From assembly GCA_024280235.1 (NCBI GenBank), contig JAJRQN010000012.1, forward strand, positions 1 to 33,525: DNA of 33,525 bases, given 5' to 3'. The notes under the pieces were generated by a model, which saw only the letters and a list, made by a program, of their open reading frames with translations, was not told the DNA's origin and searched no databases. Shown one piece after another: positions 5,366 to 12,393 of this stretch. This DNA comes from Bacteroidota bacterium (GTDB taxonomy: Bacteria; Bacteroidota; Bacteroidia; Bacteroidales; F082). A program made the translations under genes and the position numbers. Position 1 is the stretch's first letter; each line of letters opens with the position of its first letter.

Positions 5366-5605
5366 ATGTCAAGAATTTGTCAGATAACAGGAAAAAAAGT
5401 GATTACCGGAAACAATGTTTCCCACTCACATATTAAAACCAAAAGAAAATTTCATCCGAACCTTCAAACCAAACGGTTTTACATTCCTGAGACCGATAAA
5501 TGGGTTACTTTGATGGTATCGGCTGCCGGGATTAGGACCATTAATAAAAAAGGTATTTTCAATGCCCTGAAAGAAGCCGAAGAAAAAGGTTTTTATAAAG
5601 CCTGA
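5366..5605 (+). CDS. rpmB: 50S ribosomal protein bL28
   Basis: The 79-residue protein begins [24 protein letters not shown] and continues with [17 protein letters not shown], typical of Bacteroidota L28. It is a structural protein of the large ribosomal subunit. The reading frame is open further upstream to 5267, but those residues have no L28 similarity and the ATG at 5366 gives the normal length. The gene ends in TGA at its expected C-terminus, which shows that TGA is a genuine stop in this genome. In many Bacteroidota rpmB is followed by rpmG and a DUF4295 gene. Here it stands alone and runs straight into a terminator shared with the convergent adk gene. Confidence 0.95.
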
Positions 5606-5630
5606 GTTAAAAAATAATGTTTAAAAAAAA

Positions 5631-5660
5631 GCTGTCAGCCTTTGGCCGACAGCTTTTTTT
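5631..5660 (+). terminator. Bidirectional intrinsic terminator between rpmB and adk
   Basis: GCTGTCAGCC (5631-5640) and GGCCGACAGC (5644-5653) form a 10-bp stem with one A/C mismatch and a 3-nt loop. It is followed by a T-run (5654-5660) and preceded by an A-run (5623-5630). It can therefore end rpmB on the plus strand and hpt-adk on the minus strand. Confidence 0.85.
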
Positions 5661-5688
5661 GTATCCTTATTTTTTTGCTATTTTATTA

Positions 5689-6858
5689 TTAGTAGGAGTC
5701 GTGAAGAATATCTTTCACTTTCTCTTCAAGGCTTTCAAAGACGTCTTTTTCATCTCTCTCGGCCCGGATAGAAAAATATTTTCCCTGATTTTTATAATAG
5801 TCAACGACCGGGTTGGTCTTTTCTTTGTATTGCTCCAGCCGGTTTACAATCAACTCGGCGTTGGCATCGTAAGGCCGGGCTTTTTCTGTGCGACCACGTG
5901 CCGAAAGTCTTTTTATCGCATCAAGTGTCGGGATTTTCATGTCGATCATGGCCGAAACCGACATATTTACCCGCTGGAGCAGACCATCAAGGATGTAAGC
6001 CTGAATAAGTGTCCGGGGGAAACCTTTAAAAATAAAGCCGTTAGCATCCGGATTTTCATTGATTCTGCGTTCAATAAGCTGAATGGGGATTTCGTCCGGT
6101 ACAATCTCTCCCTTGTCCATGTATGGTTTGGCAAGCTTTCCTATTTCCGTGCCATCTTTAATTTCCTGACGCATCATCTTTCCTGTAGAGATATAGACTA
6201 ATCCGAATTCTTTGGCCAGCAGGTTGCCCTGAGTTCCTTTTCCGGCTCCCGGTTTTCCAAGTAGAACGATATTCGTTTGTGAAACAGATTTTGTTTGTTC
6301 AACGACTTCAACAATATTTTTAAAGATTTCATCAATTTCACCAACGCCATTCAGAGGATAATATTTGTTCTTTTTGGCATAAAAGTCAGCAACCGGTTTT
6401 GTTTTATTTTCATATTCTTTTAACCGGTTTTTAATAACTTCAAGGTTGTCATCCGAACGTCCGGAAACTTTAGCCCTTAACAAAAGTCGCTTGATCAGCT
6501 CGTCTTCAGGGGCCTCAAGGCTTACCATGCAATTTAGTGAGGTATTGAGCTTTAATAGAAGGCCTTCCAGAATATAGGCCTGTACTGTGGTTCGCGGGAA
6601 GCCATCAAATAAAATTCCTTTTGAATCAGGGTTAGTCTTGATCTTTTTTTCAATAAGTTGGATCACCAATTCGTCATCTACCAGACCGCCCTGTTCAATA
6701 ATTGATTTAGCTTTCATACCCAAATCAGAGCCTTCTGCGATTTCTGTTCGCAGCATGTCTCCGGTGGAGATGTAAGTCAGGTTATACTTTTCAAGGAGTT
6801 TTTTCGACTGGGTTCCTTTCCCCGCCCCGGGTGGGCCAAAAAGTGCAATATTTAACAT
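5689..6858 (-). CDS. adk: Tandem (two-domain) adenylate kinase; second domain degenerate
   Basis: 389 residues, about twice the usual adenylate kinase length, because two complete domains are fused in one frame. Domain 1 (about 1-188) has GPPGAGKGTQ (8-17), STGDMLR (31-37), DGFPRT (85-90) and the lid signature GRSDD (133-137), all the hallmarks of an active enzyme making 2 ADP from ATP and AMP. Domain 2 (about 195-389) keeps the P-loop GKPGAGKGTQ (201-210) and the overall fold motifs. However, STGD has become STGK (Lys227), DGFPRT has become KGFPRT (Lys278), and the lid reads RPYDAN where domain 1 has GRSDDN. Lys227 and Lys278 replace aspartates that lie near the Mg-nucleotide in E. coli Adk. 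Domain 2 is thus probably a regulatory or structural copy, or has altered specificity; that is inference. The gene lies 17 bp behind hpt, in an apparent purine operon. Confidence 0.93.
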   Translation of the reverse strand: MLNIALFGPPGAGKGTQSKKLLEKYNLTYISTGDMLRTEIAEGSDLGMKAKSIIEQGGLVDDELVIQLIEKKIKTNPDSKGILFDGFPRTTVQAYILEGLLLKLNTSLNCMVSLEAPEDELIKRLLLRAKVSGRSDDNLEVIKNRLKEYENKTKPVADFYAKKNKYYPLNGVGEIDEIFKNIVEVVEQTKSVSQTNIVLLGKPGAGKGTQGNLLAKEFGLVYISTGKMMRQEIKDGTEIGKLAKPYMDKGEIVPDEIPIQLIERRINENPDANGFIFKGFPRTLIQAYILDGLLQRVNMSVSAMIDMKIPTLDAIKRLSARGRTEKARPYDANAELIVNRLEQYKEKTNPVVDYYKNQGKYFSIRAERDEKDVFESLEEKVKDILHDSY

Positions 6859-6875
6859 GATTTTAAGGTTTTAGG

Positions 6876-7412
6876 TTATTGAACGATTTTGTAAATATCT
6901 TTCAGGTTGCGGGCCTGGCCATTGTAATCAAGGCCGTAGCCGATGATAAAATCATTGGGTATTTCTAATCCGATATAATCAATTTTAAAATGTTTTTGAT
7001 ACGAATTCGGCTTAAAAAGAAGTGTGGCGATACGCAGCTCTTTTATTTTCTTATCACTCAGGTATTCCAGAACCTTTTCCATGCTTATGCCCGTATCCAC
7101 AATGTCCTCCACCAATACTACCGTGCGTCCTTCAACGGATTCGTCCAGCCCGATAAGCTGGCGTACATTACCCGTTGACTGCGTTCCTGAATAGGAGACA
7201 AATTTGATAAATGAGATTTCTGCCGGGAAATGCAGCTTTTTAAACAGGTCGCCTGCAAACATAAATGCACCATTGAGGATAACAAGAAAAAGCGGATTGT
7301 TATCAGCCAAATCATGCTCCAGATCAACAACCATCTTTTCGATGGCAGCATCTATTTTTTCATGGGAGATATACGGTTCAAAAACCTTATCAAGTACTGT
7401 AATTGTTGCCAT
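6876..7412 (-). CDS. hpt: Hypoxanthine phosphoribosyltransferase
   Basis: A 178-residue type I phosphoribosyltransferase that salvages hypoxanthine (and usually guanine) to IMP/GMP using PRPP. The PRPP-binding motif VVLVEDIVDTGISM is intact, with the upstream flexible-loop region FVSYSGTQSTGNVRQLIGL and the C-terminal purine-binding part LEIPNDFIIGYGLDYNGQARNL. It is the first gene of a minus-strand pair with adk, joining two purine nucleotide steps. The start ATG (7410-7412) lies about 28 bp from a good -7 box. Confidence 0.95.
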   Translation of the reverse strand: MATITVLDKVFEPYISHEKIDAAIEKMVVDLEHDLADNNPLFLVILNGAFMFAGDLFKKLHFPAEISFIKFVSYSGTQSTGNVRQLIGLDESVEGRTVVLVEDIVDTGISMEKVLEYLSDKKIKELRIATLLFKPNSYQKHFKIDYIGLEIPNDFIIGYGLDYNGQARNLKDIYKIVQ

Positions 7413-7439
7413 TGTAAATAATAAATTTATAATAGCTCA

Positions 7440-7447
7440 CAAAGATA
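7440..7447 (-). promoter_or_regulatory. -7 box of the hpt-adk promoter
   Basis: On the minus strand the sequence is TATCTTTG, an exact TAnnTTTG match, about 28 nt before the hpt ATG. I see no matching TTTG at -33 (the area is A/T-rich). Confidence 0.5.
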
Positions 7448-7692
7448 ATATTTCATTAATATTTTTGGCTTTTTATTGTGAAAAATATTTTTTGATGCGA
7501 TGAAAGGATGGAATAAAGGGTAAAAGGGTTGGAGGATTGAAGGGTTGAAGAGTAAGAGGGTTGGAGGGTGGTGAGCGGGTGAAATGAACCGGTAATTAGT
7601 ATGTGGGCAAGTGAAGGAAAATAGCAGATGAAACACGCATGGGGCAAATCGCCACACAATTTGTTCCGTTAAACGGGAGGAACATTATCAAA

Positions 7693-7743
7693 GTCCGCCT
7701 TAGGCGGACGACTCAAATGTAGCCTTGGATTGAAGTCCAAGGC
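7693..7743. repeat. Pair of REP-like hairpins
   Basis: GTCCGCC (7693-7699) pairs with GGCGGAC (7703-7709) around TTA. GCCTTGGA (7722-7729) pairs with TCCAAGGC (7736-7743) around TTGAAG. A GTTCCGTT module (7663-7688) stands just before, the same order as at 3969-4016. Confidence 0.65.
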
Positions 7744-7754
7744 GATAGTGTCAG

Positions 7755-7790
7755 AATGCATCACATCAGTATTTTACAAAATTATAAACA
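7755..7790 (+). repeat. 36-nt conserved repeat tail, copy 2
   Basis: Identical to copy 1 (4083-4118) at 31 of 36 positions, including the run TTACAAAATTATAAACA. An ATG follows 1 nt after the tail (7792) but opens only a 14-codon frame. Confidence 0.7.
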
Positions 7791-7807
7791 TATGAAACAT
7801 CCATGGC

Positions 7808-8764: not shown

Positions 8765-9853
8765 ATGATAAAGGAACGTTTGAAAGGAAAAACGGTTCCC
8801 GTTCGCGTGGGCGTTACCCATGGCGATTATAACGGGATAAGTTACGAGGTGATGATTAAGGCCTTAATGGATAGTCGTTTATACGAATTATTTACACCCG
8901 TTATTTACGGGTTGCCTCGTGTGATTGGCTTTCATCGCAAGCATATGCATCTTTCCGATTTCAATTATAATGTTATTTCCAATATCTCGAAATTAACGCC
9001 AAGAAAATTGAACATTCGCAGTATCAGCGACGATGAGGTAAAAATTGAATTTGGGAAATCTACTCAGCTTGCCGGCGAATATGCTTTTCAGGCTTTGGAA
9101 ACTGCTGTAAAAGATTTACGGGATAAAAAGATAGATATTCTGGTTACAGCTCCCATAAACAAGGAAAATATTCATTCGGAAAAGTTTAATTTTCAGGGAC
9201 ATACAGAATACCTCACGCAACGCTTCGGTGCTGAGAACTCGTTGATGCTCATGGTTTCCAATCATCTGAGAGTGGGTACTGTTACCAACCATGTACCCAT
9301 TAGCGAAGTGGCCGGTGCTATTACCGAAGAACTTATTCTTACCAAACTCGCCATACTGAACGATTCGTTGAAAAAGGATTTCCTCATTGTCAAGCCTAAA
9401 ATAGCCGTGTTGGGATTGAATCCTCATGCCGGCGATAAAGGGGTAATTGGCACCGAAGATGAATTGCTCATTCATGCTGCAATTGTTAAGGCTAAGAAAT
9501 AAGGTGTTCTGGCTTTCGGCCCTTTTCCTGCTGATGGATTTTTCGGCGCCGGCAGCTATACGAAATACGATGCTGTTTTGGCCATGTATCACGATCAGGG
9601 ACTGATTCCTTTCAAGTTGCTGGCTTTGGACAGCGGCGTAAACTATACGGCAGGGTTGCCCATTGTGCGTACTTCACCCGACCACGGAACAGCTTACGAT
9701 ATTGCCGGTGAAAATGTGGCTTCTCCGGTTTCCATGCGGCAGGCAGTATATCTCGGAATAGATATTTACAGAAATAGGCAAAAATGGGAAGCAATGAATG
9801 CAAACCCTTTGTCGGTCAGTGCACAGGAAAACAGCCGGTTACCTAAGTCTTGA
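8765..9853 (+). pseudogene. pdxA: 4-hydroxythreonine-4-phosphate dehydrogenase, interrupted by one in-frame TAA
   Basis: The enzyme oxidises 4-phosphohydroxy-L-threonine in the DXP-dependent vitamin B6 pathway. Codons 1-245 give VRVGVTHGDYNGISYEVMIKAL through GLNPHAGDKGVIG and stop at TAA (9500-9502). The same frame then continues at once with [38 protein letters not shown] and [19 protein letters not shown]. Read through, the product would be 362 residues, the normal length, and all three metal-binding histidine motifs (GHTEYL, NPHAGD, YHDQG) are present. There is no frameshift or deletion. The only damage is one codon between helix residues KAKK and GV, a place where homologues have a variable polar residue. 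The downstream part has no good start of its own until ATG 9578. Either a recent nonsense mutation or a base error in the sequence explains this; residue quality elsewhere argues against old decay. Confidence 0.88.
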
Positions 9854-9900: not shown

Positions 9901-11409
9901 ATGTTACACAAACAATATTCGGGAGATGAGCTGGTCGCAGTGATGAAAGCAACACTCTTTTCACCTGATGTTTTGGCCATTAACGTTGAAGATATTCTTA
10001 TTGACAGCCGCAGGTTTATCCGTGCCGAAAAATGTCTGTTTTTTGCTCTCTCGGGGAAAAGAAATGATGGCCAAAAATATGTTAACGGACTTTACAAAAA
10101 AGGAATACGCTATTTTGTAGTCCCTAATAGTTTTTCTGCTGTTTCCGGTATGGAAGATGCGTCATTTTTTCGTGTGTCCGATACACTGAAAGCGTTACAA
10201 CAGCTCGCTGCATATCATCGCAGTCAGTTTGATATTCCGGTTATTGGTATTACAGGTAGCAATGGGAAGACTATTGTGAAAGAGTGGCTTTTTCAGTTGA
10301 TGAGTCCGGACAAAAAAATCGTACGTAGTCCGAAAAGTTATAATTCTCAAATCGGAGTACCACTGTCGGTATGGCAAATGAACCGGCAAAATGAATTGGC
10401 TATTTTCGAAGCCGGCATATCCCGTCCCAACGAGATGGAGCATCTGCAAACTATCATCCAACCCACTTTGGGCATTTTTACCAATATCGGCGAAGCTCAC
10501 AGCGAAGGATTTATCAACATGGCTCAGAAAGTTGGTGAAAAGCTGAAACTCTTTCCGCGTGTTGACACTTTGATATACAACAATGATCAAAAGGAGTTGT
10601 TGGAAGTCATTATTCGTACAGGTATTCTCGAAAATCTCAATACATTCACATGGGGCAGGGATGATAACAGCAACCTGCGCATTGTTGAAAAACGAACGGA
10701 GGAGACATTAACAAAAATTTTTGCCGATTATCAAGCGGAAAAAATCGCTGTTACCATCCCTTTTACAGATGCTGCTTCTGTTGAGAATGCAATTCATTGC
10801 TGGGCCGTCATGCTGATCCTGGGATATGACCATAAGGTTATCAACAGACGTATGGCAGCGTTGACGCCTATCGCCATGCGCCTCGAACAAAAGGAAGGCG
10901 TTAACAACTGCACCATCATCAATGATGCTTATAATTCCGACTATAATTCACTTACTATTGCGCTGGATTTTATGCAGCAGCAAAATCAGCACAAGGAAAA
11001 AGTAGTGATTCTTTCGGATATTCTGCAAAGTGGTCGTGGCGAAGAAGACTTATATGGAAATGTTGCCGGACTGTTAAAACAAAAAGGTATTTCCCGGATT
11101 ATCGGCATCGGCGTTGCTATCTCGCGTCATGCGGGATTGTTTGAAATAGAAAAAGATTTCTTCCCGACAACCCGCGATTTTCTTGCCGGTTTTCCCATGG
11201 CTTCCTTTCGCAATGAAACCATTCTGCTGAAAGGAGCCAGAGTTTTTGAATTTGAACGTATCAACCGGTTGCTACAGCAAAAGGTTCACGAAACTGTTTT
11301 CGAAATCAATCTGAGTGCACTCATCGAAAATCTCAACTTCTTCCGCTCAAAACTAAAACCAAAAACCAAAGTTATGGCTATGGTAAAAGCTTTTTCGTAT
11401 GGAAGCTGA
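9901..11409 (+). CDS. murF: MurF portion of the fusion, as it would be translated to the TGA
   Basis: If the TGA is real, 502 residues are made: the whole UDP-N-acetylmuramoyl-tripeptide:D-alanyl-D-alanine ligase domain plus about 45 residues of racemase. The ATP-binding loop GITGSNGKTIVKEWL (about residues 113-127), the central motif FEAGISRPNEMEHLQ, TLGIFTNIGEAHSEGF and the C-terminal domain marker NDAYNSDYNSLTIALDF are present, so the ligase could still work in the cytoplasm. It begins 47 bp after the pdxA frame ends, with no clear promoter between them, so co-transcription with pdxA is likely. Confidence 0.8.
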   Translation: MLHKQYSGDELVAVMKATLFSPDVLAINVEDILIDSRRFIRAEKCLFFALSGKRNDGQKYVNGLYKKGIRYFVVPNSFSAVSGMEDASFFRVSDTLKALQQLAAYHRSQFDIPVIGITGSNGKTIVKEWLFQLMSPDKKIVRSPKSYNSQIGVPLSVWQMNRQNELAIFEAGISRPNEMEHLQTIIQPTLGIFTNIGEAHSEGFINMAQKVGEKLKLFPRVDTLIYNNDQKELLEVIIRTGILENLNTFTWGRDDNSNLRIVEKRTEETLTKIFADYQAEKIAVTIPFTDAASVENAIHCWAVMLILGYDHKVINRRMAALTPIAMRLEQKEGVNNCTIINDAYNSDYNSLTIALDFMQQQNQHKEKVVILSDILQSGRGEEDLYGNVAGLLKQKGISRIIGIGVAISRHAGLFEIEKDFFPTTRDFLAGFPMASFRNETILLKGARVFEFERINRLLQQKVHETVFEINLSALIENLNFFRSKLKPKTKVMAMVKAFSYGS

Positions 11410-12393
11410 AGTTTTGAAATTGCCAATGTACTTCAATTCTATCAGGTGGATTATCTTGCCGTGGCTTATGTGGACGAAGGGGTTGAGCTGCGCAATGCAG
11501 GTATCCGGCTGCCCATAATGGTGATGAATCCCGAAGAGTATGCCTTTGATTTAATGATAAAGCATCAGCTTGAGCCGGAGATTTTTAGTTTTCGTGCACT
11601 GCAAATGCTGGAAAAAGCCATCCGGAAGAACCATCTGCCGCAAAACAAACCGGTTAAAATTCATTTGAAACTCGAAACAGGGATGCACCGGCTGGGCTTT
11701 CAGGAAGAAGATGTGGATGAATTGATATCGCGTCTCAATGGCAATCCGCTGATTTATGTTCAGTCTGTATTTTCTCATCTTGCGGGGAGCGACAAACCTG
11801 CTCTGGACGACTTTACCCGGATGCAGATTGCGCATTTTCAGAAAGTTGCACAGAAGCTAAAGGAAAATCTGCCCGGGCCTTTTATGATGCATTTGCTCAA
11901 TTCTGCCGGTGTAAGTCGTTTTCCGGAAGCACAATTCGATATGGTACGTCTTGGCATTGGCTTGTATGGTATTTCTTCGTACAAGGAGACAGCGGACAGG
12001 TTACGAGATGTTACCAGTCTGCGAACGGAAATTACTCAAATAAAAAATGTCAAGGCGGGAGAGTCGGTAGGCTATAACCGTAGTTTTATTGCGAAAAAAG
12101 AACATCGCATTGCCACTGTTTCTGTGGGCTATGCAGATGGGCTGTTTCGTTTGCTGGGAAATGGTAATTTTTCGTTTTGGATAAAAGGAAAACCAGCGTT
12201 AGTGATTGGCGATATCTGCATGGATATGTGTATGATTGATGTAACCGGAATGAAAGTAAAAGAGGGTGATACGGTATTTGTCTTCAACGCCGAACATCCC
12301 GTAATTGAACTTGCAGAAGCGGCAAAAACGATTCCCTATGAGGTGCTTAGCCGCATCTCGCGCAGGGTAAAACGGGTGTATTTTTATGAGTAG
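9901..12393 (+). pseudogene. Bifunctional MurF / alanine racemase fusion, interrupted by one in-frame TGA
   Basis: Bacteroidota commonly fuse MurF (adds D-Ala-D-Ala to the UDP-MurNAc tripeptide) to alanine racemase (makes D-Ala). Here one frame spans both: MurF about residues 1-455 and Alr about 460-830. It is broken by TGA at 11407-11409 (codon 503). The interruption falls just after the Alr PLP-lysine motif MVKAFSYGS (Lys496). The frame resumes with SFEIANVLQFYQVDYLAVAYVDEGVELR, so TGA stands where the family has glycine (SYGSGSFE); GGA to TGA is a single G-to-T change. Downstream Alr motifs are intact: KLETGMHRLGF, LNSAGVSRFPE, GYNRSF, VSVGYADGL and ICMDMCMIDVT. As D-alanine synthesis is normally essential, a sequence error or a very recent mutation is more likely than old decay. 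Confidence 0.9.

Follow-up and report, generated by a model that had tools for sequence, protein, structure and literature searches.

A tandem adenylate kinase of Bacteroidales with lysine at the Walker B aspartate position of its second domain

The gene described here was found in a 33,525 bp stretch of DNA, referred to as the window, from contig JAJRQN010000012.1 of a Bacteroidota bacterium (order Bacteroidales), and encodes two adenylate kinase (Adk) domains in one chain. By sequence comparison, the signature of domain 2 in such tandem proteins is K278 together with the lid pair Tyr-Asp (Y330-D331), and K227 is a local feature. The reading favoured by us, with about even confidence, is that domain 2 may be a Mg-blind pseudo-adenylate-kinase partner, which would tune domain 1 within a housekeeping covalent pseudo-dimer.

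Materials and Methods

The order was surveyed with the whole protein as query (E-value ≤1e-62) in 247 evenly drawn genomes, including the window genome (G000). The locus set was made up of the loci matched in the surveys and in 60 near relatives, together with 36 loci taken from named genomes. Removal of identical ORFs resulted in 130 distinct Bacteroidota tandem ORFs, one of them truncated (L063), which do not represent 130 independent events, as near-identical relatives are still among them. For the single-domain comparison, 46 of 47 single ORFs were used, one short ORF being dropped. Tandems with R230 and K278 were designated type A (89/130; the type of the window protein), those lacking R230 but having either K or T at position 278 type B (36/130), and five were left as other. 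Adk content was checked in 58 chosen genomes by PF00406 profile search (E-value ≤1e-10). A quick maximum-likelihood tree was calculated from 131 domain sequences, i.e. those of 42 tandems (thinned to <66% identity), the 46 singles, and E. coli; 63 of its 128 inner forks were open, and the reliability of such quick trees is lower.

Results

Two adenylate kinase domains in one protein

The protein family model PF00406 matched the protein twice, with 166.9 bits for domain 1 and 159.8 bits for domain 2 (cut-off 26.8), and the same register on the plus strand at 5689-6858 was interrupted by stops. Domain 1 thus belongs to PF00406 / TIGR01351 on the basis of its score and all checked catalytic residues, and domain 2 on the basis of its score and its similarity to an Adk structure (Z 28.1). 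The motifs STGD34 and D85-GFPRT of domain 1 read STGK227 and K278-GFPRT in domain 2, and the domain-2 lid reads A-R-P-Y-D-A-N. Two whole Adk domains within 389 residues, both aspartate-to-lysine changes and the altered lid (RPYDAN in place of GRSDDN) had been claimed in the earlier note, and all of these were recovered in the translation and by the two above-cut-off matches. In alignment to E. coli Adk, the domain-2 lid retains R328 (aligned one column off E. coli R156) and one Asp, D331, and its loop is about two residues longer. Residues binding phosphate or AMP were present in domain 2 of the window protein (K207, R230, R282, Q286, R317, R321, R328, R340).

Table 1. Coordinates of the tandem adenylate kinase gene, its parts and its upstream neighbour in the window.
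Feature	Position	Strand	Remarks
Tandem adenylate kinase gene	5689..6858	minus	389 aa and stop; two PF00406 matches
Domain 1, residues 1-189	6292..6858	minus	Adk domain; matched to E. coli Adk
Domain 2, residues 194-389	5692..6279	minus	Adk fold; Walker B Asp to Lys, lid altered
Y95-I96-x-x-G99, domain 1	6562..6576	minus	127/130 tandems; proposed inter-domain face
K227 codon	6178..6180	minus	position of E. coli K-12 Adk D33; K in 49/130 tandems
K278 codon	6025..6027	minus	position of E. coli K-12 Adk D84; K in 124/130 tandems
Y288-I289-x-x-G292, domain 2	5983..5997	minus	128 of 129 tandems with letters here; proposed inter-domain face
Altered lid R328-P-Y330-D331-A-N333	5860..5877	minus	Y330 and D331 each in 128/130 tandems
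hpt, hypoxanthine phosphoribosyltransferase	6876..7412	minus	TIGR01203, 161.9 bits (cut-off 150)

An AlphaFold2 model of the tandem, based on 34 sequences, had a mean pLDDT of 88.5 and a pTM of 0.61, a value at which the model does not fix the arrangement of the domains. Modelled domain 2 superimposed on the structure 5ycb_B with an rmsd of 1.3 over 185 residues, and in the model it retains the full Adk fold. The top Foldseek match, the two-domain chain 9fqr_G8, was rejected as having a shared domain arrangement, since the rmsd across the whole chain was 18.4.

K278 and the altered lid mark domain 2

The E. coli residue D84 is taken here as the Walker B aspartate, in line with the description of the hhhhD motif in passages of PMC9599734. 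Domain 2 lacks this residue of a catalytically competent kinase, K278 standing in its place. Among the 130 tandems, position 278 was K in 124, N in two, D in two, T in one, and a gap in one; K278 occurred in 89/89 type A and 35/36 type B proteins. In the singles the position was D in 45/46, and none of the 45 true single-domain Adks had K, the sole single with K278 (L180) being the end of a truncated tandem.

Position 227 was far more variable (K 49, S 32, E 22, A 10, P 7, others 10). K227 was present in 44/89 type A proteins, the remainder having S, A, E, Q or G, and it was fixed only locally, in 27/28 type A proteins of the window's own family (f1). Both lysines were found together in 48/130 tandems, K278 alone in 76, and K227 alone in one, so a lysine pair was rejected outside a few lineages. 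The earlier note had asked whether the lysines are conserved as a pair and had regarded the paired change as selected; the Walker B half of that proposal stands and the pairing does not.

Two types of domain 2

In type A, R230, Q286, R317, R321, R328 and R340 were each present in 89/89 domains, and K207 and R282 each in 82/89, seven domains having Arg in the P-loop and seven lacking R282. The AMP pocket was likewise retained (T225 in 88/89, G279 and Q286 in 89/89). To judge from these AMP- and phosphate-site residues, ligands may be bound, as the residues kept would allow binding. In type B, K207 was replaced in 36/36 (35 R, 1 M), R230 was gone in 36/36, and R328 in 36/36 (31 M, 2 V, 2 K, 1 gap), with Y330 retained in 36/36 and D331 in 35/36. 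As type B is without the P-loop Lys and the AMP-site Arg, the conserved part of domain 2 can outlive canonical nucleotide binding. Tandem paralogues of type B, with a degenerate domain 2 that keeps K278, included L073-L078, L109-L113, L156-L158 and L160-L173.

The tandem was found in 59 of the 247 order genomes (65 with any match, minus six with only single-domain matches), a count that may miss distant tandems, as the search threshold favours kin of the query protein. Of these 59, 32 had only type A and 12 only type B, whereas 11 had both and four neither; type A was thus present in 43 of the 247, roughly one genome in six. A draw from the phylum yielded the tandem in 6 of 296 genomes, namely the window genome and five of other classes, all five with type B. 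Of 50,697 phage records, 15 had an Adk match, all with <60% identity. In the best 10 of these 15, both halves of the query hit one stretch of about single-Adk length, and these matches look like single Adks.

Domain 1 as the probable housekeeping enzyme

In domain 1, K14, R37, D85, R89, R124, R128, R134, D136, D137 and R145 were each conserved in 130/130 tandems. Among the matches listed, the tandem was the only Adk found in 22 of 35 type-A genomes, both matches of each lying within the tandem, and domain 1 must therefore be the housekeeping enzyme there. The other 13 had either a type-B gene as well (four) or a further Adk domain (nine) among the matches listed. In the window genome (95.65% complete) the two tandem domains were the only PF00406 matches. 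Again among the matches listed, the tandem was also the sole Adk in a genome with D278 (G120) and in two type-B genomes, G476 and G195, the gene of the latter being cut by a contig end.

Gene neighbourhood

The hpt gene lies upstream of the tandem gene on the same strand, spaced by 17 bases, and the two likely form one operon. Immediately 5′ of the gene, hpt was found for 59/89 type-A ORFs, 0/35 type-B ORFs (35 instead of 36, as L174 was then still classed as other), and 28/47 single-Adk ORFs. As hpt also precedes singles, the neighbourhood is uninformative on domain 2 specifically, and gene context was rejected as a clue to it. Downstream, a gene resembling obg followed in 32/89 type-A loci. 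A widely shared neighbour was not found for type B, its largest cluster of flanking ORFs spanning 3/36 loci. Scanning of window positions 5500-7800 for promoters and terminators gave counts at the level of shuffled sequence.

A single Adk-like gene was located directly 3′ of seven tandems on the same strand (L128, L136, L144, L146, L149, L154, L159), giving three Adk domains in a row, and this additional gene keeps the Walker B Asp. Elsewhere in the window, on the plus strand, two frames contained in-frame stops. The frame at 9901-12390, presumably MurF-Alr-like, has TGA at 11407-11409, and no internal stop was present in 10 matched full-length relatives; the TGA is a nonsense change or an assembly error. 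The frame at 8765-9850, presumably PdxA-like, has TAA at 9500-9502, and 2 of 10 matched relatives also had one stop in the matched span (G004 TGA, G005 TAA).

A hydrophobic patch in both halves

The YIxxG positions (Table 1) are located in both halves in the helix after Walker B. In 31 ordinary singles, the three positions carried these residues in 0, 3 and 6%, and mostly charged or small residues were found instead. In seven singles presumed to have lost domain 2, YI was present in 7/7 and G in 6/7. A hydrophobic patch in both halves that is rare among ordinary singles suggests a fused (pseudo-)dimer, with the patch as its putative interface.

Origin, selection and loss of domain 2

A branch with an SH-aLRT value of 98 subtended all domain-2 sequences, and by this tree the tandem is derived from one old duplication, with a single branch for all second domains. 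The two D278 tandems, L151 and L154, were the first to diverge among the domain-2 sequences, in keeping with an origin of K278 later than the duplication; both, however, are without R282.

For ten proteins of the same genus, the median dN/dS was 0.036 in domain 1 and 0.042 in domain 2. Both values are rough: of the 45 pairs, 33 for domain 1 and 37 for domain 2 showed saturation of dS, which left 12 and 8 pairs, with high dS, for the medians. Median pairwise identities were 0.654 (domain 1) and 0.577 (domain 2) in type A, and 0.672 and 0.554 in type B. Judged by these values, domain 2 is evolving somewhat faster than domain 1, yet far from neutrally. The loss of its catalytic residue is conserved and accompanied by purifying selection, as in a pseudo-kinase. 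The earlier note had allowed that domain 2 might just be drifting if its lysines varied freely, which is contradicted by the residue conservation and a dN/dS of about 0.04.

In a genome of the same genus (G009; L079, 1520-2150, minus strand), an intact domain 1 is accompanied by a domain 2 that is out of frame and has several stops, and this relic indicates that domain 2 is useful, yet not essential everywhere. The single-domain relatives L080-L083 and L181-L182 were grouped among the domain 1 sequences with weak support and carry most of YIxxG; they may represent further losses of domain 2 or forms preceding the duplication.

Discussion

In the mechanism favoured here, one ancient duplication would have given rise to the paired domains, and later the Walker B aspartate of domain 2 would have been replaced by K278 and the lid remodelled to Y330-D331. 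Domain 1 would catalyse ATP + AMP = 2 ADP. In domain 2, the ammonium group of K278 would occupy the place of the Mg water shell, and the domain would be without efficient phosphoryl transfer; in type A it would still bind adenine nucleotides without turnover. Domain 2 may dock onto domain 1 via the YIxxG helices and, depending on nucleotide state, set the activity, opening rate or stability of domain 1. Type B would be further along, and its domain 2 is probably a docked partner only.

A lysine at the Walker B position should hinder the use of Mg and make efficient catalysis by domain 2 improbable. Nucleotide binding is predicted to be likely in type A, as the phosphate and AMP contacts are mostly retained there. 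D84 probably contacts Mg via water, however, and Mg could therefore still be bound after its loss; point mutants at the Walker B Asp exist in older literature. According to passages of PMC9599734, the Walker B Asp lies next to the Walker A Ser/Thr and the Mg-bound water, and the Walker A Ser/Thr is Gly in human Adks except AK6. The corresponding position in the tandem is Gly, like in human Adks, and rules from other P-loop NTPases hence transfer only in part. Against the favoured reading, K278 may serve a structural purpose instead of substituting for Mg, since type B keeps it despite having lost the P-loop Lys, the AMP-site Arg and the lid Arg. Also against it, domain 2 is dispensable, being a relic in G009 and perhaps lost elsewhere, and another Adk domain was present in 13/35 type-A genomes among the matches listed. 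The P-loop Arg of seven type-A domains and the absence of R282 from seven speak against it too.

The persistence of K278, Y330 and D331 in type B, where R230, K207 and R328 are lost, is an argument for a purely structural role, in which domain 2 would be the ligand-free half of a fused dimer, stabilising or orienting domain 1, and K278 and D331 would lock the domain internally in a closed state (e.g. by a salt bridge). The almost invariant YIxxG in both halves is in agreement with this, as is the modelling of the AMP-binding part of domain 2 with higher confidence than that of domain 1 (pLDDT in successive blocks 95, 96, 93, 92 and 92 for residues 221-270, and 83, 82, 73, 83 and 78 for residues 31-80). 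The six type-A residues that are kept without exception (R230 to R340) are more, however, than a plain scaffold should require, and four tandems with N278 or D278 retain D331, by which a K278-D331 lock is not obligatory. We consider such a scaffold possible but doubtful, and rank it behind the Mg-blind tuning partner and ahead of a kinase with altered chemistry. The latter, rather unlikely in our estimate, would be an active nucleotide kinase that is Mg-free or uses another phosphate acceptor or donor. The checked phosphate-binding arginines and the P-loop Lys are retained in most type A domains, and purifying selection is almost as strong as on domain 1, both of which speak for activity. A new substrate is not indicated, however, as the pocket of T225, G279 and Q286 is that of Adk, and the usual activity is not expected of type B. 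Moreover, in a passage of PMC11835391 the phosphoryl transfer of Adk proceeds at >500 per s with Mg and at 7.5e-4 per s without, i.e. nearly a million-fold slower when metal-free.

Decay of domain 2 after the duplication, with the lysines neutral, is very improbable: it would account for the broken domain 2 in G009, for its absence from some related genomes and for the free variation of K227 beyond a few lineages, but drift is ruled out by K278 in 124/130 tandems and the dN/dS of 0.042, and the tandem frame is open in 59/247 order genomes. Returning to the tuning partner, an extension of it is that the type-A tandem, often the only Adk of its genome, would contain its own sensor of energy charge, namely a dead twin with Lys replacing Mg that responds to adenine nucleotides free of metal and adjusts, across the pseudo-twofold interface, how fast the live twin works. 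This extension appears unlikely; if true, bacteria would have a housekeeping adenylate kinase under allosteric control.

Adenylate kinase is the textbook single-domain enzyme that works alone. Domain 2 is of type A or B in 55 of the 59 tandem-bearing order genomes, with the charge at Walker B reversed in nearly every sequence. The natural series of D278, K278, K278 with loss of the P-loop, and loss of domain 2 lends itself to asking how an enzyme domain becomes a partner or regulator, and offers a direct test of whether lysine can replace Mg at a P-loop site; with the relic in G009, nature has provided a knock-out of the second domain. In open-licence literature, neither a bacterial tandem Adk nor a pseudo-Adk domain or a Walker B-lysine tandem was found to be described, by which absence is not proven.

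Among known systems, the tandem resembles the short-lid bacterial Adk (PF00406, TIGR01351, NF001381) in the above-cut-off scores of both domains, the catalytic residues of domain 1, and the fold, and the position of hpt directly 5′ is common to singles too. It differs from that enzyme in having two domains per chain and in its domain 2, where the Walker B Asp is missing along with one of the two lid aspartates, and where K278 and Y330-D331 are found. Degenerate Adk-like domains, such as that of Hydin (PF17213), have an Adk-like fold with changed catalytic residues, but here PF17213 was matched only below threshold (20.4 bits, cut-off 27), and in domain 1. Within the same order, a 377-aa ORF (L105 in G038, 1489-2619) is a fusion of HPRT (E-value 2.5e-57) with a single Adk domain, which involves the same gene pair as hpt-adk of the window, with HPRT as fusion partner instead of a second Adk domain. 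The vertebrate AK5 and AK8 are tandem Adks as well, each a single chain with a pair of whole Adk domains, as here, and both of their domains are reported to be active in a passage of PMC10056885, whereas the loss of the Walker B Asp from domain 2 of the bacterial tandem speaks against activity of both domains as in AK5 and AK8.
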